Origin: a virus
Reading direction: 5' to 3' (one strand)
DNA length: 64,000 nt
Virus record (IMG/VR): IMGVR_UViG_3300044451_000434
Span: 62,001-126,000 of that record
Position numbers and translations under genes: made by a program. Under the pieces are notes generated by a model, which worked only from the letters and a program-made list of their open reading frames with translations, was not told the DNA's origin and did no database searches. This document shows, piece by piece, positions 15,845-51,309 of this stretch (positions are counted from its first letter, which is position 1; each line of letters begins with the position of its first letter).

Positions 15845-16849
15845 TTATAGAGGGAATGGGTGTGGCTGATCTCCCATACTCCACGGTTCACCACCATAAT
15901 CAGATATCGCAAGATACCTGCCGGCGTCGGTACCTAAAGAAACAAATGCCATGGGTGTCTCGATGATTCCGTTGGTGAGTTCTGTGCTGTCCAACTGGAA
16001 GACGCAGCCGAAGAACTTCACAAGAGTTGTCGGGGTTGGTCCGATTTTGGCCTGCAACATAAGATTGACATGCGGGATATTTTCGCCCGGATCATCTTCC
16101 CGATTTTTTGCCTGATCGGCCAAGGTTGATGGGCGACCAAAAAATGTTATACTACCAGTTATCTTACGCTTCTTTGGCAGGATGTCGTATGGAGCCAACT
16201 GCCCCGCGATGACATACACCTCTTCCGACTGGTTGTCAATTGTTACATTGAATTGCTTAATTAATTTGAACTCATTTTGATTGACACCACCATTGTTCAT
16301 GTTCTCCATGCCGATGGTTACATCGTTGTAAGAGATAACACGGAGAGGAGATTCCGCATCTGCAGTTGTTAAGTTGGGAAGAGCATCCGCTGCTGTTGCT
16401 GCCCGACGACCCCTGCCTCGGAATTCAGCAGTGCAATCCAAGGTACCATTGGCAGATATATCCAGTGTTATTTTGTCAACGACCATGTCTTCGTATACAA
16501 ATGTGAAACCAGAGTGGTAATGAACCACCACATCAACAGTTTTCGCGAATTTGCCATCTGCCGTTCTCCTGCCTGCAGCAGTCCACAACTCCGCGAAGGT
16601 GTCGAGGTTTCCGCCATCCTGTGCCTTATCTAGGGTGAACTTTACTTGGCCTGATGCCTTAAAATTGCCCATCTTGTATCTGGTCATGTCAATGCTGCCG
16701 TCGATATCCTCAACTGGTTCAATTGACTGTTCACCCTTGATGTTGCAAGTCGTTACACGCAGGATACTCCCGTTGATGGCCACCACGCCAGGGAATCCAG
16801 CACGCACGGGAAAATTTTGGTTACTAATAGGTTCCTCAAATGATGGCAT
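15845..16849 (-). CDS. Major tail tube protein (probable)
   Basis: 334 residues, ATG at 16849 with AGGT eight bases upstream. The pattern is that of tail tube subunits: ITGSITFFGRP and ASGQVKFTLDKAQDGG strands, a VRVISYNDVTIG segment and a region (residues 60-160) alternating long strands with short loops such as TVDVVVHYHSGFTFVYEDM. Tube proteins stack as hexameric rings around the tape measure. The gene precedes the frameshifted chaperones and follows the connector genes, exactly as in siphovirus maps. No tail sheath gene precedes it. Assignment is from fold-like pattern and order; no strict signature residue exists for the family. Confidence 0.75.
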   Translation of the reverse strand: MPSFEEPISNQNFPVRAGFPGVVAINGSILRVTTCNIKGEQSIEPVEDIDGSIDMTRYKMGNFKASGQVKFTLDKAQDGGNLDTFAELWTAAGRRTADGKFAKTVDVVVHYHSGFTFVYEDMVVDKITLDISANGTLDCTAEFRGRGRRAATAADALPNLTTADAESPLRVISYNDVTIGMENMNNGGVNQNEFKLIKQFNVTIDNQSEEVYVIAGQLAPYDILPKKRKITGSITFFGRPSTLADQAKNREDDPGENIPHVNLMLQAKIGPTPTTLVKFFGCVFQLDSTELTNGIIETPMAFVSLGTDAGRYLAISDYGGEPWSMGDQPHPFPL

Positions 16850-17275: not shown

Positions 17276-18361
17276 TCATAATGATGTTACACTTTCTACA
17301 TCAAGTTTCCCTGCTTCCCTTCTTGAGATTAATGGCAGCAATTTGATAAAAATATCAAGATGGTTGGGAATAGCCGAAAGATCGCAAGGTCGCGAGGGTT
17401 CTGATAGGGACGATAAGGCCACCAATGTCTCTGAAAGAGCCCCTGGAATCGGTATATGCAGCAACTTGCCTGGCGCAGACATGAACGGGACAGATGGAAG
17501 GAGATGGCTGCATCCAAGGGCCCGGAAGACTGGGCAGTCGGTCACCACCGAATCAACCCCAAATTTGGCGGCTTCAACCACAGAAACCGCAGAAGACGGG
17601 CATAGGACAGGGAAAATCGCCGCCCAAGCGCCAGCAAGCGTCTGCGCGTACAGGAGGTCGTCCACCCCGTACTCCACAGAAGAGGCCGCCCAAGCCTGCC
17701 TAGAGCCTGCTGGTAGTCTCCCACGACCAAGGTCAAAATCTCCAGGATCAGCCCCATTTGTTCCGATCACAAGCTCCCATCCACCGCTAGACAGACCAGA
17801 CTTCTCCCATTCCGACAGAAGGTATGAAAAATTATTAGACTCAAAGTTTCTCATGGGTGCAAAAAAATACTTCCCCCTCTTGATCCCGTGCACATCCTGC
17901 GAAAGCATGGCGGTTGACGGTATAGAAACTTGAACATTTTTTGCACCAGATCTGGTAGCTTGGTTTGCTGCCATCCTGCTGCAGGCTATGACCGCATCAG
18001 CTAGAGGACATGAATCGTAGGGTCTGTCAACATGTCTTTCGCAGTCGTTCAATATGTGCAACCATCCAAAATCGCCAATCCCGACCACCCTACAGGCTGC
18101 GACATGGGCGGCATCTGCGTCATCCCCAAAAGATATCACCAGATCTGGTTTCGCTGATTCGCAAAATGCGCCAAAGTTGACCGCTGCCGCAACCCCTCTT
18201 GGCAACGGCAAGCACCTTGGGATGTCTAAATCAGCAGATAGATCAAAAAACACCCCAACATGTTCGGGAAAAGATTTTTGAACATGTCGCCATATGACAT
18301 CGCCAATTCTTGAGTTGGCGGTCAACAGATGAGGGCTGCAACCTGTCACGGCAACAATCAT
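17276..18361 (-). CDS. GT-B-like glycosyltransferase within the tail operon
   Basis: I place the start at the ATG at 18361 (MIVAVTGCSPHLLTANSRIG, 361 aa), because it overlaps the previous stop as TGATG and has GGAGG upstream; the frame is open further to 18430. A Rossmann-like N-terminal half (VISFGDDADAAHVAACRVV, GWLHILNDCERHVDRPYDS) is followed by ADAVIACSRMAANQA, typical of the GT-B linker region. A C-terminal half ends in SSAVSVVEAAKFGVDSVVTD, resembling the GT4 donor-site motif without its first Glu. It probably transfers a sugar to a virion protein, DNA or host surface component; substrate unknown. The presence of such a gene between tail genes is unusual. Confidence 0.65.
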   Translation of the reverse strand: MIVAVTGCSPHLLTANSRIGDVIWRHVQKSFPEHVGVFFDLSADLDIPRCLPLPRGVAAAVNFGAFCESAKPDLVISFGDDADAAHVAACRVVGIGDFGWLHILNDCERHVDRPYDSCPLADAVIACSRMAANQATRSGAKNVQVSIPSTAMLSQDVHGIKRGKYFFAPMRNFESNNFSYLLSEWEKSGLSSGGWELVIGTNGADPGDFDLGRGRLPAGSRQAWAASSVEYGVDDLLYAQTLAGAWAAIFPVLCPSSAVSVVEAAKFGVDSVVTDCPVFRALGCSHLLPSVPFMSAPGKLLHIPIPGALSETLVALSSLSEPSRPCDLSAIPNHLDIFIKLLPLISRREAGKLDVESVTSL

Positions 18362-19269
18362 CACGGAGGCTGCCTCCAAGAATCGCCAAATCCGTATGGA
18401 GGGTGCATCTGGGCTTCGGTTGCACTCCAACTTATTTTAGCAGCCTTCAGCAATGTGTCCTTATGGACGAATCCATACTCAATATTTCTTGGCCAACATT
18501 TGTACAAAAATCTTTCAACAAGTATGGCCTTGGGGTCATTTACTACAAGATACTCGTTTTTTGCAGGCTCAGACAGCCTGATCACCTGACCGTCGACGAT
18601 CTCAGCCACATGGCAATCTTCAGATATGAATACACTGTCCAACAAAATGAACTGACCTGCAGTAATGCCGTCTGTATCTGCAAGCCTCACAAAAACATCA
18701 CCCTGCTCAATATCAGCTATGATTGACACATATCCCTTATCGCCAGCAATAGCAACAGGATTTTTCTTTAGACCTGTTTCTATAATGTTGGTAAGATGTA
18801 AAAGATACTCATAGCCCTCCTCTTGGGCGGCATCCGCAACATAGCAGACGATGTCAACCTCGTATGTTTCGTTGCTTACCTCCAAACCAATCCATTCAGA
18901 GTTCTTGCTCTTGCCATTTATCGTTATTGCAGGGTATTTTATGATAGTGTTTGGATCCCCAAGATATATACCCTGAATAAATTGCCCCTTCACAGCCTTG
19001 CGCAAATTGCAGCTCCCAACATTCCAATCAGAAAATCTGACACCATCTTGAAGAACTACATGCGTATCATCAGGAATCTCAACAACAATATGAGGATATT
19101 CAAATTCTTCACCATCGGTGATCAGCACATCATCGCCAACCTTGAAGCGATGAGAAGTTCTCAGCGTCAAAACATTGTCACCAACAGCTATGGGCTCCGT
19201 TATGGGAGATTGAAAGTTAACCCATCTGTGTATAATCTGTCGGAGACTAGTGAGAACCTTATACATCAA
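18361..19269 (-). CDS. Tail-completion or terminator-like protein (302 aa)
   Basis: Starts ATGATG at 19269, overlapping the previous stop, and ends in a TGATG junction with the glycosyltransferase gene. Residues 25-90 form a strand-rich domain (VGDDVLITDGEEFEYPHIVVE). Residues 125-165 contain YEVDIVCYVADAAQEEGYEY followed by LLHLTNIIETGLKKN, the strand-then-helix arrangement seen in small tail terminator/completion proteins. A second similar beta domain follows (AGQFILLDSVFISEDCHV). It sits between connector-type genes and the tail tube, consistent with a head-tail joining role. Assignment is tentative. Confidence 0.6.
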   Translation of the reverse strand: MMYKVLTSLRQIIHRWVNFQSPITEPIAVGDNVLTLRTSHRFKVGDDVLITDGEEFEYPHIVVEIPDDTHVVLQDGVRFSDWNVGSCNLRKAVKGQFIQGIYLGDPNTIIKYPAITINGKSKNSEWIGLEVSNETYEVDIVCYVADAAQEEGYEYLLHLTNIIETGLKKNPVAIAGDKGYVSIIADIEQGDVFVRLADTDGITAGQFILLDSVFISEDCHVAEIVDGQVIRLSEPAKNEYLVVNDPKAILVERFLYKCWPRNIEYGFVHKDTLLKAAKISWSATEAQMHPPYGFGDSWRQPP

Positions 19270-19523
19270 AGTGGGTATTTCATTATTTTTTCAACAACCC
19301 TATCAAGCATATCTTCCACAATCGCATTTATCTTGTCCATCTTGGCAGCATCTTCGGGCGAAGCGCTTCTTACTGCAGCGTCTTGAGTTGCCTCTTCTCT
19401 AGAGGAAAATATTCTTGTGCTAGCATATATGCGAGATGGAGCACTAGAAGACTCGGCAGACCCATCTTTTATGGCATTGATCTGCGCTAGAGCCGAGCTG
19501 ACAATATCTCTCATTTCTGCCAT
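19266..19523 (-). CDS. Small helical hypothetical protein (85 aa)
   Basis: The ATG at 19523 (MAEMRDIVSSALAQINAI) is preferred; a GTG at 19529 in the same frame overlaps the previous stop as GTGA and could be the real coupled start (87 aa). The product is polar and helical with a C-terminal amphipathic helix (AIVEDMLDRVVEKIMKYPL). Its stop overlaps the next ATG. The family is not recognised; position among connector genes suggests a head-tail joining or assembly role. Confidence 0.7.
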   Translation of the reverse strand: MAEMRDIVSSALAQINAIKDGSAESSSAPSRIYASTRIFSSREEATQDAAVRSASPEDAAKMDKINAIVEDMLDRVVEKIMKYPL

Positions 19524-19525
19524 GA

Positions 19526-20251
19526 TCACATCTCAGGAATGTCTCTAGTCGAATCCTGATCAGTATTGGGTAGTGCATATCTACTCAGAAGCGTGGGGTT
19601 GGCAAATCTGCTTGAGATTCTATTCTGACCATGAAGAACAGTTCTCCCATTCAATATATTGCTCAACATGATGCGTGCCTGATTTCTCAACCCTTTGCCA
19701 TATTCGCTGTTTCCAGTCGCGCTCATGTAAGAGAAGTACCTGTCAAATAGACTGGCGACACAGAGACGTGCTGATGTCCCCGGGACAGGATCGGGGAATT
19801 TCACGCGCAGCAATCGTGATTCTGCGGCTGAAAAATCCACCAAGAAAGGTTCATTGACGATGAGGTTTGTTCCGTTCGCAACATCAGCGACTGTTCTTCT
19901 CTCATTAATAAATCCATTTGTCAACACAATCACATCACCAGGAACGAATACATTTGCATTTGGACTCATGATGACAACATCTGTGTTGTAGGGATCAATG
20001 TCTACCACAAGTTCAAATTCCACATCACTTATCTCTCTCAGTGGAGTGCTGTACATGGAGCTCAAAATAGAGTTTATGTACTGGTCGGCGAGAACAATGT
20101 GCTGATCAAGAATCTCGTCGGTTATCACATTCCCCTTGAGCATGTTACCAAAGTTGACGAGATCGCCTTTCTGAGTGAGCGTTGGATCTGTTGCAGTCGT
20201 AAAAGACTGGGCAAAAACACGCTTGCAAAGGTCTCGCGTTGCATATCCCAT
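19526..20251 (-). CDS. Head-tail connector-like protein (241 aa)
   Basis: ATG at 20251 shares its A with the stop of the actin-like gene (TGATG). It begins MGYATRDLCKRVFAQSFTT. Residues 45-75 (DEILDQHIVLADQYINSIL) resemble the helical core of DUF1320/gp6-like head-tail adaptors, which form a ring under the portal. A middle beta insertion follows (VVIMSPNANVFVPGDVIVLT), then helices (ARLCVASLFDRYFSYMSAT). The order in the operon (before tail completion and tube genes) supports an adaptor. The Cys and Arg residues show no obvious metal site. Moderate confidence. Confidence 0.6.
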   Translation of the reverse strand: MGYATRDLCKRVFAQSFTTATDPTLTQKGDLVNFGNMLKGNVITDEILDQHIVLADQYINSILSSMYSTPLREISDVEFELVVDIDPYNTDVVIMSPNANVFVPGDVIVLTNGFINERRTVADVANGTNLIVNEPFLVDFSAAESRLLRVKFPDPVPGTSARLCVASLFDRYFSYMSATGNSEYGKGLRNQARIMLSNILNGRTVLHGQNRISSRFANPTLLSRYALPNTDQDSTRDIPEM

Positions 20252-21423
20252 CAGACCTGATCCCTAGTTATAATTCCCTTGACAAGTCTATTCTTCACAA
20301 TCTGAGCAGATGTTAAAAGCCCAGAGCAAACCGCGTTTCGCGGGTCTGCAGCCTTGCGAACATCGCCAATTTTGAACGGCAAATTTATTGAAGACATGAT
20401 TCTTTCCAATTTCTTATCGAAACCGTTTGGCATAGAAGTGCCTCCGGCGATCACCACATCAAGAGGCTTATCAAACTGACTCTTAACTTCTGTAAACTTC
20501 TTAGCAAACAAACCCACGACATGACGGAGCATAGCATCGTAATATGCGTCAAGGGCAAAAGCTGTGTCATTGTCTTCGTCTATATTTTTAAAATCAAGAA
20601 CTCGCTCTTTGAAGTCAATCACCTGAGACATAGGTACTGCAGTCTGCTCTGAAACCTGTTTATCTACCCAATCTCCGCTCCTGCTGACAGACATACCAAG
20701 AACCTGCATGCCCTTGTATGCCAAAACGCAGTTTGCCCTACCAGCACCAAATGACATTCCTATTCCACTGAACGGCACTTCTGTACCGTCATCAAGAACA
20801 ACAGACGGCCTCTCGCTGAGGATGACAGCAAGACCTTCTTCTATGACCTTTACATTCCAGCCAAGGCGGGTAAACATGGCCTTGAGGCGAGCTGCATGGA
20901 AAGTACTGTCCTGCCCACCGTCAGCGCACGGACTCGACACGCATGTGCAAACAACGGAATTTTCGTCAGGGGCCTTACCAAGAGAAGATTCTATAATGCC
21001 AGAAAGAACCAAACTCTTCTTTGGTTCATCTCTATTGAGCACTCCATCTTGAAGAGGACGACGAATCTCCACCGAACCAGGAAATAACTTGGCAACCTGC
21101 ATGGAGTCATCTCCAACGACAAAATACTGCATTCCGTCGTTTACATATCTCCAGCCATTTCTAGTCAAGATCTCTTCCAATTCTGATGAATATGGGATTT
21201 CTACAAATGCGTTCCTGACCGCAGAGACGCTTATCTTGTCATCAATGAGCTCTGCTGTCTGAAAAAACATAGTTCCCACATCAACTCCCACTGCTCGGGC
21301 GTGTGACTCTTGCGCCTGTACCGATTCAGCCTTGTTGGCAGTTTGCACAGGGGTATTCGGATTCACTGACGACCGAAGCTTTAGGGAGGCAAAATTCTGC
21401 ATGGCTTTTTCCTTGGCACTCAT
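20251..21423 (-). CDS. Actin/MreB-fold (ASKHA) ATPase
   Basis: 390 residues with the marks of the actin/Hsp70 superfamily: a phosphate-1 loop VGVDVGTMFFQTAEL (residues 45-59), a connect-like helix VIEEGLAVILSE (193-204), a phosphate-2 loop GIGMSFGAGRANCVLAY (220-236) and an adenosine loop DVVIAGGTSMPNGF (322-335). The first 40 residues look like a flexible extension (Gln/Ala/Ser-rich). It is flanked by TGATG overlaps on both sides: with a 175-aa unknown gene before it and a connector-like gene after it. Related proteins polymerise for plasmid segregation (ParM, AlfA), cell shape (MreB) or phage positioning. Its role here is unknown; being embedded in morphogenesis genes is unusual. Confidence 0.85.
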   Translation of the reverse strand: MSAKEKAMQNFASLKLRSSVNPNTPVQTANKAESVQAQESHARAVGVDVGTMFFQTAELIDDKISVSAVRNAFVEIPYSSELEEILTRNGWRYVNDGMQYFVVGDDSMQVAKLFPGSVEIRRPLQDGVLNRDEPKKSLVLSGIIESSLGKAPDENSVVCTCVSSPCADGGQDSTFHAARLKAMFTRLGWNVKVIEEGLAVILSERPSVVLDDGTEVPFSGIGMSFGAGRANCVLAYKGMQVLGMSVSRSGDWVDKQVSEQTAVPMSQVIDFKERVLDFKNIDEDNDTAFALDAYYDAMLRHVVGLFAKKFTEVKSQFDKPLDVVIAGGTSMPNGFDKKLERIMSSINLPFKIGDVRKAADPRNAVCSGLLTSAQIVKNRLVKGIITRDQV

Positions 21424-21950
21424 CAGAGAAGACCCTCCAATTCATCTAATTTTTTCTTCATATCGGACGCGTCCTTAGATTTGCCTTTTTGAGGTTCCAT
21501 ATTGGTGGAAAGATTAGACGCCATTCGTGAAACAACTTTTTCATGTATAGCTATAAGGTTTTCGGCTTGCGGCTCAGATATTGATTCTACAACATCAATC
21601 TTTTCAACCCGAGATGAAACATGAACAACTTGAGGGGCAGGCATGGAAGATAACATATTTTTTAGCTCTGCTAATGATTCTGCTATGGCAGATATGGCCT
21701 TGCCGTCATTTTCTTCTCTGACTATTTTTCTCAATACGTCCATGTCTATGGTATTCTGGCGCCCACGGCTAGAATCTTTTGCCACCACTCTCAGATACCC
21801 GGCGACCACGGCTTTCTTGACTGAAGGACTTGCCTCGACAATTCTCCTGTCAGCAACAATGTCAAGATCTATAGACTGACTTGGAGACAAAATGACCTTT
21901 AGGTCTCCAAGCGACAAATGCTGCCTAGTTGTATTTACTACCAAAAACAT
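21423..21950 (-). CDS. Hypothetical partner gene of the actin-like ATPase (175 aa)
   Basis: I start this gene at the ATG at 21950 (MFLVVNTTRQHLSLGDLKVI), which overlaps the zinc-ribbon stop as TGATG; the frame is open to 22037 but that would overlap by 88 bases. Residues 1-65 form a small beta domain resembling domains that read VVNTT...LGDL...ILSPSQSIDLD, also seen at the N-terminus of the glycosyltransferase gene at 29739-31085. A helical, charged tail follows. It is translationally coupled to the actin-like gene, so a filament adaptor or regulator is a reasonable guess, without direct proof. Confidence 0.7.
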   Translation of the reverse strand: MFLVVNTTRQHLSLGDLKVILSPSQSIDLDIVADRRIVEASPSVKKAVVAGYLRVVAKDSSRGRQNTIDMDVLRKIVREENDGKAISAIAESLAELKNMLSSMPAPQVVHVSSRVEKIDVVESISEPQAENLIAIHEKVVSRMASNLSTNMEPQKGKSKDASDMKKKLDELEGLL

Positions 21951-22165
21951 CAGCCCTGCAATCTGGTTCGCGGTAAAGGTTTGAAATTTTTTGATGGATC
22001 TACAATCATCGTCGAACTCTTTTTGCACGATGGACAAACCATGTGAATCGTGCCCTGTGAGAAGTTGATCTCCACGTTGCCACGAGCCGCCGTACTAGAG
22101 AAACACGCAGGACACACCACCCTGAACTCCTCAGACTCATGGACCACCTCCTCTGGTTTAGGCAA
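21950..22165 (-). CDS. Small zinc-ribbon protein (71 aa)
   Basis: ATG at 22165 overlaps the end of the preceding gene by 8 bases. Two CxxC pairs, CPAC near residue 18 and CPSC near residue 44, frame a compact beta ribbon (FSQGTIHMVCPSCKKSSTM), so zinc binding is likely. It is otherwise basic and short. Such ribbons bind nucleic acid or proteins. It is the first member of the coupled trio zinc ribbon, 175-aa protein, actin-like ATPase. Confidence 0.75.
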   Translation of the reverse strand: MPKPEEVVHESEEFRVVCPACFSSTAARGNVEINFSQGTIHMVCPSCKKSSTMIVDPSKNFKPLPRTRLQG

Positions 22166-24416
22166 GGAACAAACTCCTTGCCAATTTTAACATGCAACCC
22201 CTTACATCTTCGTGATTGCATTCTGCCTCTTTGACTAAGAACTCTTCATCTATAAATGCCATTCGGTCTCGAGCTCGATTTGCACTGCCTAGACCAGATA
22301 GCCGCCAAGCCTTGCTGTCTGGCTCTTCCCCAATGAAATTTATCAGTGCGACAGTTTCTGCATCACTAATGAAATGCGGTCTTAAGCTAAAAGCCAAGCT
22401 AGCAATCACTCTTGCAGCATCTCGGCTATCATTGTTTCTGCTAGTCGCCTTATTGAATGCTTCCACAAGAGCATTATCTAACTTATTCTGCTCTTGAGGA
22501 TCAGCATTTGTCAACGATTCTCGCCATGCCTCAATACTGAATGCATTAACAACCTGCTGCAGTTTTTCGTATATCAAATTATAGGCATTCGGCCCACTTT
22601 TTGGAATGCGCTCAACGGTTCTGTTCGTGTTGTCTTTCAACAACTGCGCCATACACTCAGCCATTTCTTTACTGCTGATGGCATCTTTGATCTGCTGCAC
22701 CTTCTCCTCAAAAGGAAGACTAGAAATTCTTGGAGCCAATTCGTGCACCAGTAATTGTTTGCAACGACGCTTAGCCTGTTCTTTTTTGGAAGGAGTTTTC
22801 GGTCGACTCTGCTGAAGACTGTGAAGGTCAGATTTGTCGTAATTATCAGGTGCGAATTTCATCCAATCTCTCGGAGGATCAGCCCTATTTACCCTAACAA
22901 TGGCATTCAAAACCTTAATGCCCCCATTAACATCACCACTTTGTGTGGTGATTACAATTTGACCGTGATTGTGGTTGACATACGCTGTCTTCTTTTTGTC
23001 AAACAGCGACTTTAGCATGGTCAGTGCAGGAATTGAATAGCCACGATTAGCAACATTCATAAGCGTATCAAACCTTCCGATGAGCCTGTCACGTGCTATC
23101 TTTGCATCTCCGAGAGACTCCTTAAAAATATTTTTCATAGGATTTACGGCCGCCTGCCTATCCTTCATCTGTTCAGCACCAATCGTATCAACGGAAAGTC
23201 TATCAAGTATGCCCTTCAAAGAGCTAATATGGGTGTCAAGTTTGATGGCGAGTTGATTTTTAAATTCTTCAAGAATTTTGATAGCTTTATCGTTGTATTC
23301 AGAAAGAGGCTGACGCTCAAGATTTTGAATTTCACTCTGAATGTAGACATCAAGATCTCTATCTCCGCCTTGCCTGTCCGCGATCATGTCAAGACCTCGC
23401 TGCTCATTTGCGTCTACTCCCATTGCAAGAGTAGAGTCGTACTCATCCCGCTCGAATCGATTGACTCCAATTTCACTCCGACGCTTGTCAATCACATATG
23501 CGAACATATGTGCAACCACATCTTCGTCGCCACCCTGCAGGAGATTTACAAGCCTGCATAGAAGCGTGATGCCAACAACATCAAAACTAGTTGATATTCC
23601 TTGCATCTGATCAATAGTTTTATTAGATATTGCATGAACATTTTTCTTTTTAGAACGATTTAATTCATCTTGGACACGCCGAGGCATCTTTTCACGATGC
23701 CCATCAAAAAAACTATATACAAAGTTTCCCTTAGATCTATGAAAATCAGAAACATCTATGACTGCTCTCCCTCTTTCAATATCATTTAAATATTCAAGAT
23801 ATTGAGGATCTGATCTTCTTTTAAACCAGTCAGTTCCCAAGCCATTCCTAACACATACTGCACGAGCAGCGCTTTGATGGTTGGCAAGAGCTTGCCTGCC
23901 GAATTCTGGCAAATCGCCTTTAGATACCACATCATTCAGATGTGCGATGATGCTTTGCAGGTCATCTTGTCCTTCAGGAAATGTTGAACATGGAGACTCG
24001 TCGTGATTTACATTCGGCACCTCTCTCATGTGCCTTAAGGGCGCGGCTCCGCCCCGAATAGGTTGGGAACCACGATCACCCTGTATGGACACCTCGGGGG
24101 TCTGCAACAACTCTTTTAAACATGTAAGATTGTCAGTTAAAACATCTCGTGCCGCTTCGAGAACATGTTCCTGATTCTCGAGACCATGAATTCTTTCAAA
24201 AGCATCCTCAATCAGGCTATTCAACTCCTGACTCCGAACATCAACATGCTTAGTATGATCATCGGAAGCCCGCTGCATGGCGTCGACCACTTCAGTCAGG
24301 TATTTGTACAATTTATCGTTGCGATTCTTGATCAAATTAAGCTTCTGGGTCACCGATTCGCAAGCACCAAATGCGGTTTTTTGCAATTTCTGTGAAAACA
24401 TGATATACTTTTCCAT
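22158..24416 (-). CDS. Large helical protein of unknown function (752 aa)
   Basis: The frame extends to 24488, but the first 24 codons run through a strong hairpin and an atypical basic peptide, so I prefer the ATG at 24416 (MEKYIMFSQKLQKTAFGAC); the ATG at 24401 is also possible. The protein is mostly helical, with coiled-coil-like stretches (residues 30-100 and about 330-430) and a strand-rich patch HNHGQIVITTQSGDVNGGIK near residue 495. No Walker box, nuclease or peptidase motif was seen. It lies between phoH and the zinc-ribbon/actin set. Possibly an internal virion or assembly protein; not recognised. Confidence 0.7.
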   Translation of the reverse strand: MEKYIMFSQKLQKTAFGACESVTQKLNLIKNRNDKLYKYLTEVVDAMQRASDDHTKHVDVRSQELNSLIEDAFERIHGLENQEHVLEAARDVLTDNLTCLKELLQTPEVSIQGDRGSQPIRGGAAPLRHMREVPNVNHDESPCSTFPEGQDDLQSIIAHLNDVVSKGDLPEFGRQALANHQSAARAVCVRNGLGTDWFKRRSDPQYLEYLNDIERGRAVIDVSDFHRSKGNFVYSFFDGHREKMPRRVQDELNRSKKKNVHAISNKTIDQMQGISTSFDVVGITLLCRLVNLLQGGDEDVVAHMFAYVIDKRRSEIGVNRFERDEYDSTLAMGVDANEQRGLDMIADRQGGDRDLDVYIQSEIQNLERQPLSEYNDKAIKILEEFKNQLAIKLDTHISSLKGILDRLSVDTIGAEQMKDRQAAVNPMKNIFKESLGDAKIARDRLIGRFDTLMNVANRGYSIPALTMLKSLFDKKKTAYVNHNHGQIVITTQSGDVNGGIKVLNAIVRVNRADPPRDWMKFAPDNYDKSDLHSLQQSRPKTPSKKEQAKRRCKQLLVHELAPRISSLPFEEKVQQIKDAISSKEMAECMAQLLKDNTNRTVERIPKSGPNAYNLIYEKLQQVVNAFSIEAWRESLTNADPQEQNKLDNALVEAFNKATSRNNDSRDAARVIASLAFSLRPHFISDAETVALINFIGEEPDSKAWRLSGLGSANRARDRMAFIDEEFLVKEAECNHEDVRGCMLKLARSLFLA

Positions 24417-24457
24417 AAATAGTATTTCTGACTTGTTGCGACCTATCCTTGTGCGGA

Positions 24458-24491
24458 GGTGTGGGGCAGAAAACGAACCCCGCCCCACACC
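24458..24491 (-). other. Strong hairpin between phoH and the 752-aa gene
   Basis: GGTGTGGGGC and GCCCCACACC make a perfect 10-bp stem with a 14-base loop. Neither strand has a T-run directly after it, so it is not a canonical intrinsic terminator. On the leftward message it lies about 40-75 bases before the preferred ATG at 24416, so it may stabilise the leader or reduce read-through. Confidence 0.55.
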
Positions 24492-24503: not shown

Positions 24504-25193
24504 TCAGTTTTTTTCCTTGTATTTGAGGTCTATCTTAGAAACAAGACCATGTCGCTGGCAAGATTCTGGGGGGAATTGGAAACGACTAATCCCATCCACG
24601 CTCTTGAGCCTTCTAAGAGCATCTGTCAAGCCATTCCTAGACGACCTGCAATCTAGATCGCACTGGAATTCGTCACCTGCGACAACTGCTTTAGATGATT
24701 TACCAAGCCTAGTGAGGAAAAGGTGCATCTGCTCAGGAGTGCTGTTTTGCGCCTCGTCCATGATCATGAAAGTGTTTTCAAAAGTGACGCCACGCATGAA
24801 GGCAAGAGGGAGTATTTGAATTTCATCAGATGCCATCATTCTGCTAGCCGTGCTCTTCCCAAGAATTTTCTCCATAATCATCCTGATTGGAGCAACAAAA
24901 GGATCGAACTTTTGCTCAAGAGATCCAGGAAGGTATCCTAGTCTTTCGCCAGCGCTCACGTAAGGACGTGTAAGAATAATTTTGCTTATTCGTTTTTCAC
25001 TCAACATCCGCAAAGCCATGCCAGTGGCAATTGTTGTTTTTCCTGTACCCGCCATTCCATATAACATGGTCACTGCGCTGTCCTCAATTATTTTCACAGC
25101 TTGCCTCTGATGTTCATCAAGTGGCTTGAATGCTATATGGGACCCAGGACGACTGCTCTCAATCAACTGCTTGCGCTTGGACTTGTTGCTCAT
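24504..25193 (-). CDS. phoH: PhoH-family ATPase
   Basis: 229 residues with the full PhoH pattern: DEHQRQAVKIIED before a Walker A GMAGTGKTT (46-54), the PhoH phrase LTRPYVSAGERLGYLPG (74-90), DPFVAPI, and a Walker B FMIMDEAQN (142-150) followed by the QMHLFLTRLG helix and a VAGDEFQCD segment. PhoH proteins are cytoplasmic RNA/nucleotide-binding ATPases common in large phages; their phage role is not settled. The protein is close to the usual phage PhoH length and lacks an added PIN domain. It overlaps the previous gene by 4 bases (ATGA). Confidence 0.95.
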   Translation of the reverse strand: MSNKSKRKQLIESSRPGSHIAFKPLDEHQRQAVKIIEDSAVTMLYGMAGTGKTTIATGMALRMLSEKRISKIILTRPYVSAGERLGYLPGSLEQKFDPFVAPIRMIMEKILGKSTASRMMASDEIQILPLAFMRGVTFENTFMIMDEAQNSTPEQMHLFLTRLGKSSKAVVAGDEFQCDLDCRSSRNGLTDALRRLKSVDGISRFQFPPESCQRHGLVSKIDLKYKEKN

Positions 25194-29154: not shown

Positions 29155-29742
29155 TCATAGCCTTATTTCGGCTGCGTTTCTGATCCCGCTAGGTAAAATA
29201 TCATCATCTGTTCCTGTGTCAACATCATCTTTCCTTCGTATGGAGCCTCGAGATTTCCTACTTGCTTTTTGAGCCTCTTTCTTGAGTTTTAATTGCTCAC
29301 TGTGCGCCTGACGCATAACTGACAATTCTTGCCCAGACAACCTAACGAGATGACCCGAAGATATCAGAGACAGAATCTGAGCAGGAATATCACCATATTC
29401 TTTTTTGATGAATGATGCAGATTTTCCGTCTATTTTGCCATCAAACTTTAAAGGAGGCTGCAACTTGCTCAATATCAAACATCCATCTTTGGCAGGAGCT
29501 ATAAAGTCTTTTTCTTGCGACACCTGAGTATCAAGAGAGACAACTCTAGAAATAGCAGGATTAGACTGCGGGACAGATACGGTTCCAAGAACTAACTCTT
29601 TGAGAGTAATCAGGCCGCCATCAACTACGGCAGGCACGTTCATCAACTCTGGATGAACCATTACCCTATCGATTGGGAGAGAATAGACTTTTTCTCCCAT
29701 AAACACAACCCTGCCAAAATCTCTGTCGTAAAATGCTTTCAT
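29155..29742 (-). CDS. Hypothetical protein after the GT4 gene (195 aa)
   Basis: ATG at 29742 (MKAFYDRDFGRVVFMGEKV) overlaps the glycosyltransferase stop as ATGA, which favours it over the longer frame to 29793. The N-terminal half is strand-rich (YSLPIDRVMVHPELMNVPA). The C-terminal 60 residues are strongly basic and helical (KLKKEAQKASRKSRGSIRR), then acidic. No family recognised. Tight coupling implies joint expression with the glycosyltransferase. Confidence 0.7.
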   Translation of the reverse strand: MKAFYDRDFGRVVFMGEKVYSLPIDRVMVHPELMNVPAVVDGGLITLKELVLGTVSVPQSNPAISRVVSLDTQVSQEKDFIAPAKDGCLILSKLQPPLKFDGKIDGKSASFIKKEYGDIPAQILSLISSGHLVRLSGQELSVMRQAHSEQLKLKKEAQKASRKSRGSIRRKDDVDTGTDDDILPSGIRNAAEIRL

Positions 29743-31085
29743 AATTTTGTTACCAAGCCTTTGAATTGCGAAACAACGGCGTCCGCAGAGCACATGTCAG
29801 CCAATTTTGACGCTGCTCTTGAAGCCATCAAGTTTCTCTTTTTAGGGGATGTAGACCAACATATTCTCATGGACGCACCAAGTCTTTGAATAAATTCTAC
29901 ACTCACCGTATCCGCCATGACGGTGCCATCCCATAAAATTGTACCAGTTGTACCATTTTTAATAGTTGTCCTGTCAACATCGACCAAAAATGCTGAAGAA
30001 TCATCAAGGAAATCAAGTTGACCACCAAACCTTGGAGCAACTGAAGGTATCCCGCACATGGCTGCTTCTGCATACGGAAGACAAAATCCTTCTCCCCTTG
30101 CAGCTAGAACGCATGCATCTACAGACCTGTACAACTTGGCAAGATCTGCTTCAGTAATGTTTTTAGACATTCTGACCACGAGTGGAGGATGCTTTTTGCC
30201 ACAACTTGACACCAAATCAGAAACCACATCTGCGAATTTTTTTTGAGCTTCTTCTCCGCGCTTGTCTCTATGCGCCACGATGAGACATACATCATCTGAT
30301 GGATCAAATTCCTTAAGAAATGACTCAATTACATTGGTGCCAACCTTTCTAGAGCTAATTCCAAATATAGTTAAAAACTTGAAACTTGGCAATGGAGATG
30401 AGAATTGATATTCTGCTCCTTTTGCACAAAAAATGTCATTATTAATGTGTGGACTCAAAACTCCCGCGTCAATATCATACTTCCCAAAAGTGTCACAGCA
30501 GAATCTACTTACACACCAAACCATTTCATATTTCTTTGCAGAAGCTGCAACAGCAACAGGCAGAGTTTCTGACTCGATAGTAGTGTAGAGCACCCTCATG
30601 CCAGATGGACCTGGAGAGCCAAATGTGGGTACCACACTATTTATATCAAGCATGCCTTGGCATCTTGGCCTTATGGGCAGTCCGCATCTTGCATCTTCGT
30701 ACAAAAGCTGTGGTTTCCCAAGGTCTACTGGGTCAACACTTACTGAAATGTTTTTTGTAGTAAGTGCTTTGACCAAACCTCTATTGACCTTTCCATATCC
30801 TGAATAGTCTAAAAACTGGCCTCTGATTACGACATCATCAAGCATGGCATCACCAGATGGCTTCTTTGCTTTCGCTGACATTTTTGCCAATGCTGCCTGT
30901 ATCCCATCGGCTTGGTCATGATCCAACACAACCACATAACCCTTTGCAACAGCCGAACGAAGAGATGGCGCTGATCTAACACGATCTGATGATATCTCAA
31001 ATTTATCACCACTATCACCAGCAGGGATGCGATCATCCCATTCGGGAACATATACAGGTATGCCAAGGACATTTCTTACTATCAT
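29739..31085 (-). CDS. GT4-type glycosyltransferase with N-terminal accessory domain
   Basis: I start at the ATG at 31085 (MIVRNVLGIPVYVPEWDDR, 448 aa). The first 75 residues form a small beta domain (VRSAPSLRSAVAKGYVVVL) similar in pattern to the 175-aa gene beside the actin-like ATPase. A GT-B core follows: acceptor-side motif GQFLDYSGYGKVNRGLVKAL, a linker WCVSRFCCDTFGKY, FLTIFGISSRKVGTNVIES, and the donor-site motif ARGEGFCLPYAEAAMCGIP with the E-x7-E spacing of retaining GT4 enzymes. It likely uses a nucleotide sugar; acceptor unknown. This is the first gene of a long leftward operon. Confidence 0.88.
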   Translation of the reverse strand: MIVRNVLGIPVYVPEWDDRIPAGDSGDKFEISSDRVRSAPSLRSAVAKGYVVVLDHDQADGIQAALAKMSAKAKKPSGDAMLDDVVIRGQFLDYSGYGKVNRGLVKALTTKNISVSVDPVDLGKPQLLYEDARCGLPIRPRCQGMLDINSVVPTFGSPGPSGMRVLYTTIESETLPVAVAASAKKYEMVWCVSRFCCDTFGKYDIDAGVLSPHINNDIFCAKGAEYQFSSPLPSFKFLTIFGISSRKVGTNVIESFLKEFDPSDDVCLIVAHRDKRGEEAQKKFADVVSDLVSSCGKKHPPLVVRMSKNITEADLAKLYRSVDACVLAARGEGFCLPYAEAAMCGIPSVAPRFGGQLDFLDDSSAFLVDVDRTTIKNGTTGTILWDGTVMADTVSVEFIQRLGASMRICWSTSPKKRNLMASRAASKLADMCSADAVVSQFKGLVTKL

Positions 31086-31109
31086 GGTATATTTATCGGA
31101 AAATAAATT

Positions 31110-31706
31110 ATGCCTATTGATCAATCAGGATATTCAGACGAGAATATAATATTTGGCGGATTTGGAAATGTAAAATTAAGTGTCGGATTTTCAAAAACAT
31201 GTAGACTTGAGCCAATATGCACTGATGCTATAGCTGACGGATATTCTTACATATCTTTGGGGGGGTTCAGAATAGGAACATCAACCTACGGGCAGGGAAG
31301 AGCATTGTGGGTGTACCGTCCTGCAAATATGACTCTAGATGATGTATATGTAACAATATGGAAAGGTGTAGAATTTGAGGTTGCAGCAGACACTAATCAT
31401 AAATCTTTCTGCTCATACAATATCGTCTACAACTCAGAGATCCCAAATTCTAACAATATGATCAGACTAGGAGGAGGCAGTATATCTCTTGATGTATCGG
31501 GAAAAATTTTGTGTGTAGATAAAGGATTTCCAGAAGATGAAAAAGAAGCCATCATAGGCTCTAGGCTAATAACACTCGGAAGATTTGACAACATGTGGGC
31601 GATATCGCTCTATTCTGTTTTTCCGCAAAGTTCATCTTCTAGCAGCGGTCATGACTCGGATCCGCCTGACGCTAATCCGGAAGATCCTCCTTTTAAGGAG
31701 GGTTGA
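31110..31706 (+). CDS. Lone plus-strand gene, hypothetical (198 aa)
   Basis: ATG at 31110 (MPIDQSGYSDENIIFGGFG), 24 bases from the divergent glycosyltransferase start, with GGAAAA upstream. The product is strand-rich (YSYISLGGFRIGTSTYGQG, NMTLDDVYVTIWKGVEFEV) with a Ser/Asp/Pro-rich tail (SSSSSSGHDSDPP). No signal peptide or membrane segment. It is the one convincing plus-strand gene inside the leftward region and sits between the head and tail transcription units. A surface or decoration protein, or a small transferred (moron-type) gene, are both possible. Confidence 0.75.
   Translation: MPIDQSGYSDENIIFGGFGNVKLSVGFSKTCRLEPICTDAIADGYSYISLGGFRIGTSTYGQGRALWVYRPANMTLDDVYVTIWKGVEFEVAADTNHKSFCSYNIVYNSEIPNSNNMIRLGGGSISLDVSGKILCVDKGFPEDEKEAIIGSRLITLGRFDNMWAISLYSVFPQSSSSSSGHDSDPPDANPEDPPFKEG
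31686..31702 (+). terminator. Short hairpin at the end of the plus-strand gene
   Basis: CCTCCTT and AAGGAGG can form a 7-bp stem over the last codons of the plus-strand gene. An AT-rich stretch follows, but no compact T-run. A weak terminator at best. Confidence 0.3.
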
Positions 31707-31856: not shown

Positions 31857-32726
31857 TCAGGTGGTGGTGGGATCCACGGTGATGACGGACACGGCATAGT
31901 CGTTCATGACCACGATGCCGACCTCCTCATAGATCACCCAGCCAAGACGCAGCTTCTTTGGATCATCGGCGGGAAGGACAGTGATGTCCTGGCGGATGGG
32001 GAATGCGCCAACGGTGTCTGGGCTAGCAGTGACGATAATCTTGGTGTCATCGAGCTGGCTTGACACATGGATGTCAGCCGTCCACAGGTGACCGTAAAGA
32101 CCAGTGGTGAGGATCTCACGGGTGGTGGCCTCATCATAGAAGTCCTTTCCAAAGCTGCGGACTGCTGAGTAAGACTCAGGATGCATGACCACCTTTGAGG
32201 CCACCAGATCGTGGGTCTCAATATACTTGTAGGCAGTGTTCAAAGACGCAGTCTCCAAAGTGCCCACATTGGTGATCTCCTGAGCTGCTGGAGCAGCAGC
32301 AATCAGAGCGTTGAAGATGTTGCGATCCTCTTCCTTCTGGATTGCCTCCTTTGCCTTGATCTGTGCACGGTCAACGATGTAGAAGCGACGTGCTTTGATC
32401 TCGGACAGACGGATGGTGGGGTGTGCTGCAATCTCGAAGGTGGGGACAAGAACTTCCTCTCCCTCGGTGATCTGATCAGGCACTGCACCCTGACGGGCAA
32501 CGATTGTGGCCACGGAGGCAACATCGCGCTCGTAGCGGGGAAGAGCGCCTTGGGGGAGCTCGTCCACCATCAGGAGCTTGCGACCGACGGCCTGGTACTC
32601 CAGGGAACGCCGAATCGGCTCCACCATCGCTTGAGCAAGGGCAACACGCCCCTCCTCGGTCGACAAGGCCTGTGCAATCACGGCCTCTTTCTCGTCGTAA
32701 GTCAAACCATCTTTGTTGATGCTCAT
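31857..32726 (-). CDS. Major capsid protein (HK97-like fold, probable)
   Basis: ATG at 32726 (MSINKDGLTYDEKEAVIAQ, 289 aa) with AAAGGA upstream; the longer frame to 32765 is not needed. The pattern of small HK97-type capsid subunits is clear: an N-terminal arm, a strand region HPTIRLSEIKARRFYIVDR, a long spine helix (AQIKAKEAIQKEEDRNIFN), an A-domain with VASKVVMHPESYSAVRSFG, and LYGHLWTADIHVSSQLDD near the C-terminus. Third codon positions are richer in C and G than in neighbouring genes, as expected for a highly expressed gene. It lies just before a strong terminator and next to decoration, protease and portal genes. Confidence 0.88.
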   Translation of the reverse strand: MSINKDGLTYDEKEAVIAQALSTEEGRVALAQAMVEPIRRSLEYQAVGRKLLMVDELPQGALPRYERDVASVATIVARQGAVPDQITEGEEVLVPTFEIAAHPTIRLSEIKARRFYIVDRAQIKAKEAIQKEEDRNIFNALIAAAPAAQEITNVGTLETASLNTAYKYIETHDLVASKVVMHPESYSAVRSFGKDFYDEATTREILTTGLYGHLWTADIHVSSQLDDTKIIVTASPDTVGAFPIRQDITVLPADDPKKLRLGWVIYEEVGIVVMNDYAVSVITVDPTTT

Positions 32727-32750
32727 TGTGTTTTTCCTTTCTCCGACACC

Positions 32751-32770
32751 CCCTGATTCACGCATCAGGG
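32751..32770 (-). other. Hairpin in the capsid gene leader
   Basis: CCCTGAT and ATCAGGG form a 7-bp stem with a 6-base loop, about 25 bases before the capsid start codon and after the preceding gene. It may stabilise the abundant capsid message or set a processing point. Confidence 0.4.
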
Positions 32771-33421: not shown

Positions 33422-33439
33422 GGTCTTCACTTGAAGACC
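33422..33439 (-). other. Hairpin over the stop of the protease/scaffold gene
   Basis: TGAAGACC and GGTCTTCA can pair with a 2-base loop around the stop codon at 33427-33429. A T-run lies about 15 bases beyond on the minus strand, too far for a standard terminator. A partial terminator or mRNA end signal is possible. Confidence 0.35.
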
Positions 33440-47762: not shown

Positions 47763-48284
47763 TCAACCTATCTCCGTGTTCATCATCCCAAAAATGGAAT
47801 CATCAACAATTGCTGCTTTAGATTTTTTAGTTCGGAACGATTTACGTGTAACCTTCTTTTCGGATTGTGGTTGTTTGTCTTTATTTACACACTCATGCTC
47901 GCTAGCAGCATCGGAAGAAACCGAAGCCAAGGGAGAGGAGCATGACAGATATCCGACACTCACTAGTTTCATAGCAGTCTCCATATTTGGATCAGACTTT
48001 TTCAGTATGAAACGCTGGTTGGGGGCCAATGTTCTCTTCAAAAAAGCGACCATGATACCACCCCCCTTAACATTCAAAAACTCTATTTCATCCTCGGATG
48101 TCTTGCTAGACACCCCCTCATCCGCAGAATCAAATGATATGTAGCCTTTCTTCTTAGCCCACAACACATCCTCGTGAGATGCCAATTCGTCTGGCAAATC
48201 AACAACAACACCAGGCTTGAACTTCTTTTTTATCGAAGATAAAATCAATTCACCCTTTAGTGTTTTAGAAACTATTACTTTCAT
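47763..48284 (-). CDS. Head-region hypothetical protein (173 aa)
   Basis: ATG at 48284 (MKVIVSKTLKGELILSSIK) overlaps the previous stop as ATGA. The N-terminal 110 residues contain FKPGVVVDLPDELASHEDV then LWAKKKGYISFD, a small beta domain like those that read a Phi-PG-x-x-V-D-L-P pattern in phage head proteins. The C-terminal half is Ser/Lys-rich and likely disordered. No family name can be given. Confidence 0.7.
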   Translation of the reverse strand: MKVIVSKTLKGELILSSIKKKFKPGVVVDLPDELASHEDVLWAKKKGYISFDSADEGVSSKTSEDEIEFLNVKGGGIMVAFLKRTLAPNQRFILKKSDPNMETAMKLVSVGYLSCSSPLASVSSDAASEHECVNKDKQPQSEKKVTRKSFRTKKSKAAIVDDSIFGMMNTEIG

Positions 48285-49425: not shown

Positions 49426-51309
49426 TCAGCTCCTCATGTCCTTTGCCACCCTTTGACCTAAACCAACACCATACGGAACACCCTGCATAGATCTCCACAC
49501 GGTTTGATCCGCACCCATAGTTACTGACAATCTAGCCAGTCTACCTTGCGGCAAACGAGATTGATCCTGATCGGACGTGACAAAACAGGCTCCGGCAAGG
49601 GCGTCGACAAGATCATCTGTTCTGACCATTCCGTCCCTCTTTGCAAAAACTCTATATCCTGTAGGCATGTATTTTCTTTGCAAATATAACATTTCATTCT
49701 TCAAAAGATCGTGGTGTGGTATCAATAATTTCCCGCTAGAAGCCAAATCATAAAGATAATCATAAATAATTACTTTGTAGCGTTTAGTAAAGCGCGTCAA
49801 TTTGGCAGGGATTCCCTTCGCTTGCAAACTTTTTATACTCGCTGCTGAGTTCCATTGGTCAAATGACACCTGGGAAAAATAAAATCTTCTGCTCAATTTA
49901 ATTATATATGACTCTATCTCTTCATTTACTATGGGTTTGTCTTTAGAAGGTTGCCAAAACTTTATGTGGTCAATAACTATCTTAAAATCCATCTTACCAG
50001 TATCTTTCTTTATAAATTGTTCTCTATGACAGACCACAAGGGCATAATTATGACTTGAAGTGGCTGGATCAAGATGACAAAAATACATTTGACCAGGCTC
50101 TCCATACTCTTTTAGTTGCAGAGATGGCTTAAAACAGGCCTCGACTATATCCCTTGAAAAAAAAGACTGCCCAGCTGTACCTGCAAATTCGGCGCCAAAT
50201 TCCATGCCAAACTCTTCTTCCTGCATTTGGGAAAACATAGTTCGCAGCCCATCTCGACTCTGATTTATATTGACGACCCATGTTGGTAACCGCAAAGACA
50301 TTCTCTGTGGAACATTTGGCGAAGTTTTGAACAATTCGTAAAAAACACCCTCTTTTCCACGAGGGCTAGAGATGCATACGATCTTGCCGTCGTAAATAAA
50401 TTTTTCTTGCTCTATTCCCTCTTTATCGATGTACTTCTCTCTACGAACATATGTCGCAGTGGCAGGTGCCAAAGTTCTATATATCGCCTCTCCACCGCTT
50501 GATCCAGGTGTCTGCTTGTAAAGACCAATCTCATCGAGCATGAGGCAGTAGCAACCTATACCTGCAAGAGAATCAGAATTTGAGTGACCTGACCTGATGA
50601 CCACAGAGCCAGGAGAAATCGGAAGATCCCTTGATCTCATCTCTTCGTTTCTTTTTCTGTCTGCAGGAGTCATAAGGTATATGGTGTCCTGAAGAATCCC
50701 ATCTTGACTGATCTTGTCAGAAAAATACACGCTCTTAAAAACTTTATCCCTAATTTCTTGAAAAAGTATTTCTGCCTGCTTGGAAGAGTTCGCGATAGTG
50801 ATGATGGTAAATGGAGCACCAGTGCTTAACCCGTACAGCGCGTGAGGATCTCCGTTTGGGGACTCAATTAACCTGAGAGCCTCATAAAGCGCCAAAATAG
50901 ATATGACAAAATCCTTTCCAGAACGACGCCCCCACACAAGCACCAATTCCTGAAAAAGATTTCCGCTTTCATATTTTTTTAGAAGATCACCCTGTTCAAA
51001 GTCAGGGTCATCAAGACCATGCTGTTTGCACAACTCAATCTCTTCATCAGTCAATTTTAGGTCTTCGTTGCCCTTCGTGCCCCTATAGAAAGCTTTAAGT
51101 GCAATTTTCTGGAATGGAAACAACTCAATCGGAGTTGGCTCATAATGGCTCATGCCCAAATATTCACGACTCTCAATAAATTCAACTATTGAAGGTATTT
51201 TCCCCGATGAAGATATTTGACCGCCTGTCTCGTTTTCAAGAGATTGACGAAAAGCCGTCAACTCAGCGATAAGTGGATTGTTTTTGGAAGGACGACCGCG
51301 CTTAGCCAT
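49426..51309 (-). CDS. terL: Terminase large subunit
   Basis: 627 residues. The ATPase half has an adenine-side LFPFQKIALKAFYRG, Walker A LVWGRRSGKDF (residues 125-134), Walker B YCLMLDEIG (254-262) and a coupling phrase CISSPRGKEG. The RNase-H-like nuclease half shows FCHLDPATSSHNYALVV, FDQWNSAASIKSLQ and MVRTDDLVDALAGA, which supply the metal-binding Asp residues. Together these package concatemeric DNA through the portal. A small terminase subunit is not recognised next to it; the preceding gene is a cysteine-containing unknown. Length is slightly above average for the family because of an N-terminal region of about 60 residues. The 8-base overlap with the upstream gene implies coupled translation. 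Confidence 0.95.
   Translation of the reverse strand: MAKRGRPSKNNPLIAELTAFRQSLENETGGQISSSGKIPSIVEFIESREYLGMSHYEPTPIELFPFQKIALKAFYRGTKGNEDLKLTDEEIELCKQHGLDDPDFEQGDLLKKYESGNLFQELVLVWGRRSGKDFVISILALYEALRLIESPNGDPHALYGLSTGAPFTIITIANSSKQAEILFQEIRDKVFKSVYFSDKISQDGILQDTIYLMTPADRKRNEEMRSRDLPISPGSVVIRSGHSNSDSLAGIGCYCLMLDEIGLYKQTPGSSGGEAIYRTLAPATATYVRREKYIDKEGIEQEKFIYDGKIVCISSPRGKEGVFYELFKTSPNVPQRMSLRLPTWVVNINQSRDGLRTMFSQMQEEEFGMEFGAEFAGTAGQSFFSRDIVEACFKPSLQLKEYGEPGQMYFCHLDPATSSHNYALVVCHREQFIKKDTGKMDFKIVIDHIKFWQPSKDKPIVNEEIESYIIKLSRRFYFSQVSFDQWNSAASIKSLQAKGIPAKLTRFTKRYKVIIYDYLYDLASSGKLLIPHHDLLKNEMLYLQRKYMPTGYRVFAKRDGMVRTDDLVDALAGACFVTSDQDQSRLPQGRLARLSVTMGADQTVWRSMQGVPYGVGLGQRVAKDMRS

Follow-up and report, generated by a model that had tools for sequence, protein, structure and literature searches.

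What is an actin-like ATPase doing among the head-to-tail assembly genes of a virus? The question arises from a stretch of 64,000 nucleotides (the window; bases 62001–126000 within the 164,107-base virus record IMGVR_UViG_3300044451_000434), in which genes for a zinc-ribbon protein, a 175-amino-acid (aa) protein called MID and a 390-aa ATPase form a trio followed by a gene for a gp36-like head-tail adaptor. All four open reading frames (ORFs) lie on the minus strand where the initial annotation had placed them. We found that the ATPase is an actin of the volactin family, that its gene has conserved neighbours in related phages and that its partner MID has full-length homologues beside volactins of Planctomycetota.

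The ATPase is a volactin

The ATPase scored 195.9 bits against the Pfam family Volactin (PF25216; curated cut-off 35), which was matched by all 64 of its 64 relatives, and 17.6 bits against MreB_Mbl, below the curated cut-off of 27. It is 32–33% identical to haloarchaeal volactins from plasmids of Haloarcula and Natrinema, and like them carries an SFGAG phosphate-2 loop. An AlphaFold2 (AF2) model, built from 62 sequences drawn from the window and the loci fetched, had a predicted local distance difference test score (pLDDT) of 91 and a predicted template modelling score (pTM) of 0.86, with a ~42-aa N-terminal extension at low confidence. Foldseek placed Mbl/MreB, BeeR, MamK and actin on top for this model, with template modelling scores (target-normalised) mostly of 0.55–0.70, and every one of the 50 PDB matches listed was of the MreB/actin class; a profile search of PDB sequences returned MamK (9e-12) and MreB. 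With polymerising actins best in both searches, the ATPase has the actin fold of the filament-forming type, as the initial annotation proposed. Its nearest kin, however, are not the ParM, AlfA, MreB or phage Alp proteins named there for comparison: the protein is a volactin-family actin. Sugar-kinase and Hsp70 identities were rejected, since the structural matches listed gave neither any support and included no sugar kinase.

The initial annotation also credited the protein with all nucleotide loops, which is correct for three of them and needs amending for the fourth. The phosphate-1 motif DVGT (residues 48–51), the catalytic-Glu position E196 and the adenosine motif AGGTS (326–330) are invariant or nearly so. 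In the phosphate-2 loop, Ser replaces the Asp of MreB and MamK (D161 in MamK); at that column Ser is invariant across the family, and S224, G226 and G228 are all invariant. Replacement of this Asp in MamK (D161A) and other actins abolishes ATPase activity and dynamics (PMC5059902). The volactin of Haloferax forms dynamic filaments in vivo and affects cell shape (PMC10869688); because it is dynamic despite its Ser loop, this loop characterises the family and does not by itself show that the ATPase is inactive.

Conserved gene order among phages

In a scan of IMG/VR, relatives of the ATPase turned up on at least 148 contigs, and the best 80 of these were retained. Within the close clade, whose ATPases are 49–87% identical to that of the window, the order zinc ribbon, MID, ATPase, gp36-like adaptor was found at 26 of the 26 assessable related viral loci, on contigs of up to 548 kb (L032 is cut by the contig end). 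The trio is thus present in other phages, and its setting among connector genes, noted in the initial annotation, takes in tail genes as well and is conserved. At some loci (L004, L005, L009, L010, L027 and L030), extra genes separate MID from the ATPase by 204–2143 nucleotides (nt), with the pair still near each other on the same strand. Mean pairwise identity within the module was 0.60 for the ATPase, 0.45 for the gp36-like adaptor, 0.37 for the zinc ribbon and 0.28 for MID; that the ATPase is the most conserved would be expected if polymer contacts take up much of its surface.

Translational coupling had been singled out in the initial annotation. The junctions at 21950 (zinc ribbon/MID, GCTGATGTTT), 21423 (MID/ATPase, TCTGATGAGT) and 20251 (ATPase/gp36-like adaptor, TCTGATGGGA) do all read as TGATG overlaps, but they are ordinary in their surroundings. 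In the minus-strand run 31124–15408 every intergenic gap is ≤41 nt and many junctions carry short overlaps, so that TGATG is not distinctive there, and the MID/ATPase overlap is retained solely in near-identical relatives. Coupling was therefore rejected as a signature; it is the conserved gene order that exceeds chance.

Volactin genes were also present in each of two huge metagenomic phages (485 and 595 kb). A single volactin copy per record was found in 11 records of up to 548 kb, and none of these 11, which include contigs of 494 and 548 kb, contained a tubulin/PhuZ gene. Short proteins are encoded upstream of volactin in other phages as well. In a different phage clade (L037–L051, L055, L060, L063 and L064), a protein of ~90 aa precedes volactin, has a hydrophobic, transmembrane-like stretch by eye and ends in a near-invariant IETSFG..RIG motif.

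MID and its homologues in Planctomycetota

The length of 175 aa was taken as right for MID because its homologues start at the ATG at 21950; a 204-aa ORF with a TTG start was rejected. The AF2 model of MID comprises a confident folded N-domain (residues 1–60), a low-confidence flexible linker and a C-terminal helix (159–174, KKLDELEGLL), which is the best conserved stretch of the C-terminal half. As modelled, this layout resembles the architecture of an actin adaptor, and we treat MID as a putative adaptor by its architecture and genomic partnership rather than by a proven motif. Family and structure comparisons of the N-domain gave no match to DNA-binding families or folds; the one fold match, to Bacillus subtilis YqbF, was weak (E 0.57, prob 0.63) and was set aside, and occurrences of the N-domain inside the glycosyltransferase-like gene at 29739–31124 or inside 47763–48284 were not significant. 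For the zinc-ribbon protein, matches to zinc-ribbon families were weak (22 homologues aligned). It is restricted to a single phage clade, and MID and the ATPase form the deeper unit.

Volactins are common in Planctomycetota: PF25216 exceeded its cut-off in 111 of the 294 genomes searched from this group. One clade of planctomycete volactins has a full-length MID homologue encoded directly upstream (N-domains: planctomycete MWIVKNTLRGILRFPGLDISIPPYGEFDLD; phage MFVVKNITKNEISIPDLRINLSPGDQVDLD). A profile of the phage MIDs alone retrieved the planctomycete MIDs with E-values of 1e-11 to 2.5e-4 (Z=1e6), and among 8,547 ORFs it matched nothing but MIDs better than 1e-3. A tree of 69 volactins, made by a quick method and with long branches flagged, places the MID clades of phages and planctomycetes as sisters (Shimodaira–Hasegawa-like approximate likelihood ratio test, SH-aLRT, 95). 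The homology of the gene pair agrees with this tree, and the partnership of MID with volactin spans phages and planctomycetes. The stem branch of the phage MID–volactin clade measures 1.12 changes per column. Phage volactins appear as at least four separate lineages on the tree, with a single phage origin the less likely alternative.

The planctomycete operons stand on contigs of up to 828 kb and differ from the phage locus in being chromosomal, with other genes in place of the phage ones; no zinc ribbon was found with them. In L144–L150 (e.g. L147:2748–15123), MID and volactin are accompanied by TPR, MotA/ExbB, ExbD, histidine kinase and sigma-54 regulator genes. The long contigs and the TPR, MotA/ExbB, ExbD and regulator genes (one operon scanned) make these operons look unlike prophages, and they may encode an undescribed proton-channel-plus-actin machine, perhaps serving motility or the envelope. 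In a second clade of planctomycete volactins (L107–L123), the preceding gene encodes a protein whose C-terminus, NNLDQVEVKNAKAGGVAANLAKLKNL, is strongly conserved and may be a tail that binds volactin.

The phage ATPase and volactin HVO_2015 of Haloferax volcanii are alike in Pfam family, SFGAG loop and the presence of an upstream partner gene. They differ in that the phage gene lies within a capsid/tail operon with a clade-specific zinc ribbon, and in the partner, which is a soluble MID with a small folded N-domain in the phage and a membrane protein in haloarchaea. At L096:3941–4849 and L097:3977–4900, the haloarchaeal protein encoded upstream of volactin has a long soluble tail; it could anchor to the membrane the volactin tips observed in Haloferax. 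The C-termini of the volactin-upstream proteins were similar in part: comparison of the planctomycete ones with those of haloarchaea and of one distant phage group outscored each of 150 shuffles and 43 controls. The volactin-upstream proteins of two other phage groups had no mutual C-terminal similarity. A universal C-terminal volactin-binding motif was rejected, given these dissimilar groups, low hhalign probabilities and a marginal result for phage MID.

Proposed role of the MID–volactin pair

The presence of a volactin amid head-to-tail assembly genes suggests that the phage builds filaments late, during particle production. We propose, at about even confidence, a late phage actin that forms filaments and is tied through MID to a component of the neck, tail or capsid, so that particles are positioned or their assembly is organised. 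On this view the trio of this large tailed phage would be a cytomotive module acting late. Its volactin-family ATPase would polymerise with ATP, and MID, made beside it, would engage the actin through its C-terminal helix, probably at a hydrophobic groove, as ParR does on ParM and arcadin-2 on crenactin. The folded N-domain, on its flexible leash, would hold a cargo. As the pair lies among neck and tail genes in this clade and would be made when they are, this cargo is most likely part of the head-tail connector, the tail or the procapsid. Late in infection, such filaments would place particles under assembly or bring them together, as PhuZ tubulin does in nucleus-forming phages, with the zinc ribbon as a putative accessory of this phage clade. 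We advance somewhat more tentatively, at a little under even confidence, the wider proposal that volactin and a MID-type adaptor constitute an undescribed two-part cytomotive system common to large tailed phages and planctomycetes; in phages it would be made together with the head-tail connector and serve late positioning or assembly of particles on actin filaments, as a counterpart of PhuZ where tubulin is lacking.

Known systems offer partial parallels. Crenactin–arcadin-2 and ParM–ParR likewise combine an actin fold with an operon-encoded partner bearing a short C-terminal helix, and the arcadin-2 C-terminus binds the crenactin groove as ParR binds ParM (PMC5173319); MID, however, has no detected sequence relation to arcadin-2 or ParR. 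PhuZ tubulin of nucleus-forming jumbo phages, whose filaments are used for capsids (PMC13282480, PMC9067925), is comparable in the proposed late positioning of particles by phage filaments, whereas the trio has an actin fold and the 11 records searched have no tubulin gene.

Several points weigh against this proposal. Conservation of the context could be due to a structural role and not a cytomotive one. Lacking the phosphate-2 Asp, phage filaments could be static, although Haloferax volactin is dynamic with this Ser loop. Because the records are fragments, the lack of PhuZ in them counts for little. In distant phage clades, the neighbours of volactin were not assignable to tail families with PHROGs, Pfam or PDB profiles; tail tube or sheath names given to them from their N-termini were not confirmed by these and were not used. 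Finally, the similarity of the MID C-terminus to other volactin-upstream proteins was marginal (12.0, against a control maximum of 10.9), with 2 of 150 shuffles equalling it.

The main rival explanation, which we consider unlikely but still deserving of weight, is a virion or assembly factor: the ATPase, single or in short oligomers, would help to assemble the neck or tail, or would be packaged in the virion, with MID and the zinc ribbon as structural proteins and no long filaments. Strict linkage to the gp36-like gene and the 302-aa tail-assembly gene, before the tail tube, favours it, and closterovirus Hsp70h, a virion-tail ASKHA protein among the best viral structural matches to the ATPase, offers a functional precedent by analogy. 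This explanation fits poorly with nearest homologues that form filaments, with a 390-aa protein that has no Hsp70-type substrate domain, and with planctomycete chromosomal operons in which MID and volactin keep company with ExbB, ExbD, TPR and two-component genes, so that the pair is not by its nature part of a virion.

Positioning or segregation of DNA in the manner of ParMRC or AlpAC, with MID or the zinc ribbon binding phage DNA and the actin moving genomes, appears improbable. It would share the operon logic of an adaptor plus an actin, the zinc ribbon could bind nucleic acid, and prophage CGP3 provides a phage precedent in AlpC and AlpA, an actin and an adjoining adaptor gene. AlpAC is nevertheless expressed early and binds DNA (PMC4446434), and differs from the phage pair in actin family and in genomic position, the trio lying in the terminase–portal–capsid–tail structural run and not among early genes. 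No DNA-binding family or fold was found for the N-domain of MID, and a ParMRC-like centromere was rejected because no tandem or iteron-like repeats were found at or around the locus, a further difference from ParM–ParR.

Very improbable is a host-directed device, in which a volactin from a planctomycete-like host would poison, co-assemble with or replace the host volactin and so reshape the cell, as the sister relation to planctomycete MID–volactins and the effect of volactin on Haloferax cell shape would allow, since the long stem branch sets the phage clade apart and the gene lies in a structural run, not among takeover genes.

Relation to known phage cytoskeletons

The phage cytoskeletons known so far are early DNA-handling actins (AlpAC) and the PhuZ tubulin; if our proposal is true, the archaeal-type actin that many large phages keep in their connector operon would add a third kind, tied to virion morphogenesis. 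By title or abstract, we found no volactin literature on phages, none on phage volactins or MID and no description of the planctomycete MID–volactin operon, although preprints or subscription papers may exist; the only passage on 'actin' found in a 2026 jumbo-phage review concerns Actinobacteria. New here are volactins in at least four phage lineages, their frequency in Planctomycetota, and MIDs that are homologous over their full length in phages and planctomycetes and accompany sister volactins, which extends the range of the family from haloarchaea to Planctomycetota and viruses. The Haloferax study called volactin binding factors as yet unknown (PMC10869688), and the MID–volactin pair provides a concrete candidate adaptor that is testable in two lineages.

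Surrounding genes

The features of the locus are collected in Table 1. From 5' to 3', the order is terminase, portal, a 1904-aa protein, a probable capsid protein, PhoH, a 776-aa protein and the trio. Next come the gp36-like adaptor, the 87-aa protein and the probable tail-assembly protein, then a glycosyltransferase-like protein and one of 122 aa, and finally the tail tube, after which a 1033-aa protein takes the tape-measure position.

Table 1 Features of the locus, with positions in the window
Feature	Position	Strand	Evidence
Terminase large subunit	49426..51309	-	phrog_2 1.5e-25
Portal protein, C-terminal endonuclease-like segment	39520..41730	-	phrog_16240 5.4e-41; Portal_Mu 9.5e-9
1904-aa protein, head-maturation-protease-like N-terminus	33427-39141	-	phrog_18299 2.6e-14
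Probable HK97-type major capsid protein	31857..32765	-	PF05065 E 0.0016, under cut-off
PhoH-like ATPase	24504..25193	-	PF02562 1.7e-66
776-aa protein, upstream of zinc ribbon	22158..24488	-	Position
Zinc-ribbon protein, 71 aa, TTG start	21950..22165	-	CxxC...CPxC; basic tail LPRTR
MID, 175 aa, predicted volactin adaptor	21423..21950	-	Homology to Planctomycetota protein upstream of volactin; AF2
Volactin-family actin-like ATPase, 390 aa	20251..21423	-	PF25216 E 1.5e-57
Mu gp36/DUF1320-type head-tail adaptor, 241 aa	19526..20251	-	phrog_195 head-tail adaptor E 5e-5
87-aa small protein, same operon	19266..19529	-	ORF, -4 overlap
302-aa probable tail completion/tail assembly protein	18361..19269	-	phrog_1082
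Tail tube protein	15845..16849	-	PF18906 Phage_tube_2 5.7e-17; phrog_290 3.2e-19

For the gp36-like adaptor, the match to PF07030 was under cut-off (1.4e-3), and the family profile reached E 0.03 against the DUF1320 structure 8rka. The tail-assembly family phrog_1082 was matched by 3 of 20 members of the 302-aa family (best E 9e-6). Relatives carry a gene for 774–1034 aa at the position of the 776-aa protein, with slight sequence similarity to it; as position and size are kept and sequence homologues were found only in the near-identical L021 and L022, it was rejected as a fourth conserved partner. The C-terminal segment of the portal protein has a likeness to restriction-type endonucleases (MTES_1575/DUF559), and the 1904-aa protein occupies the expected site of the protease and scaffold. 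Glycosyltransferase-like genes lie inside the connector/tail run at 17276–18430 and 29739–31124, and in distant phage clades glycosyltransferase genes recur near volactin (e.g. GT9 in L053).
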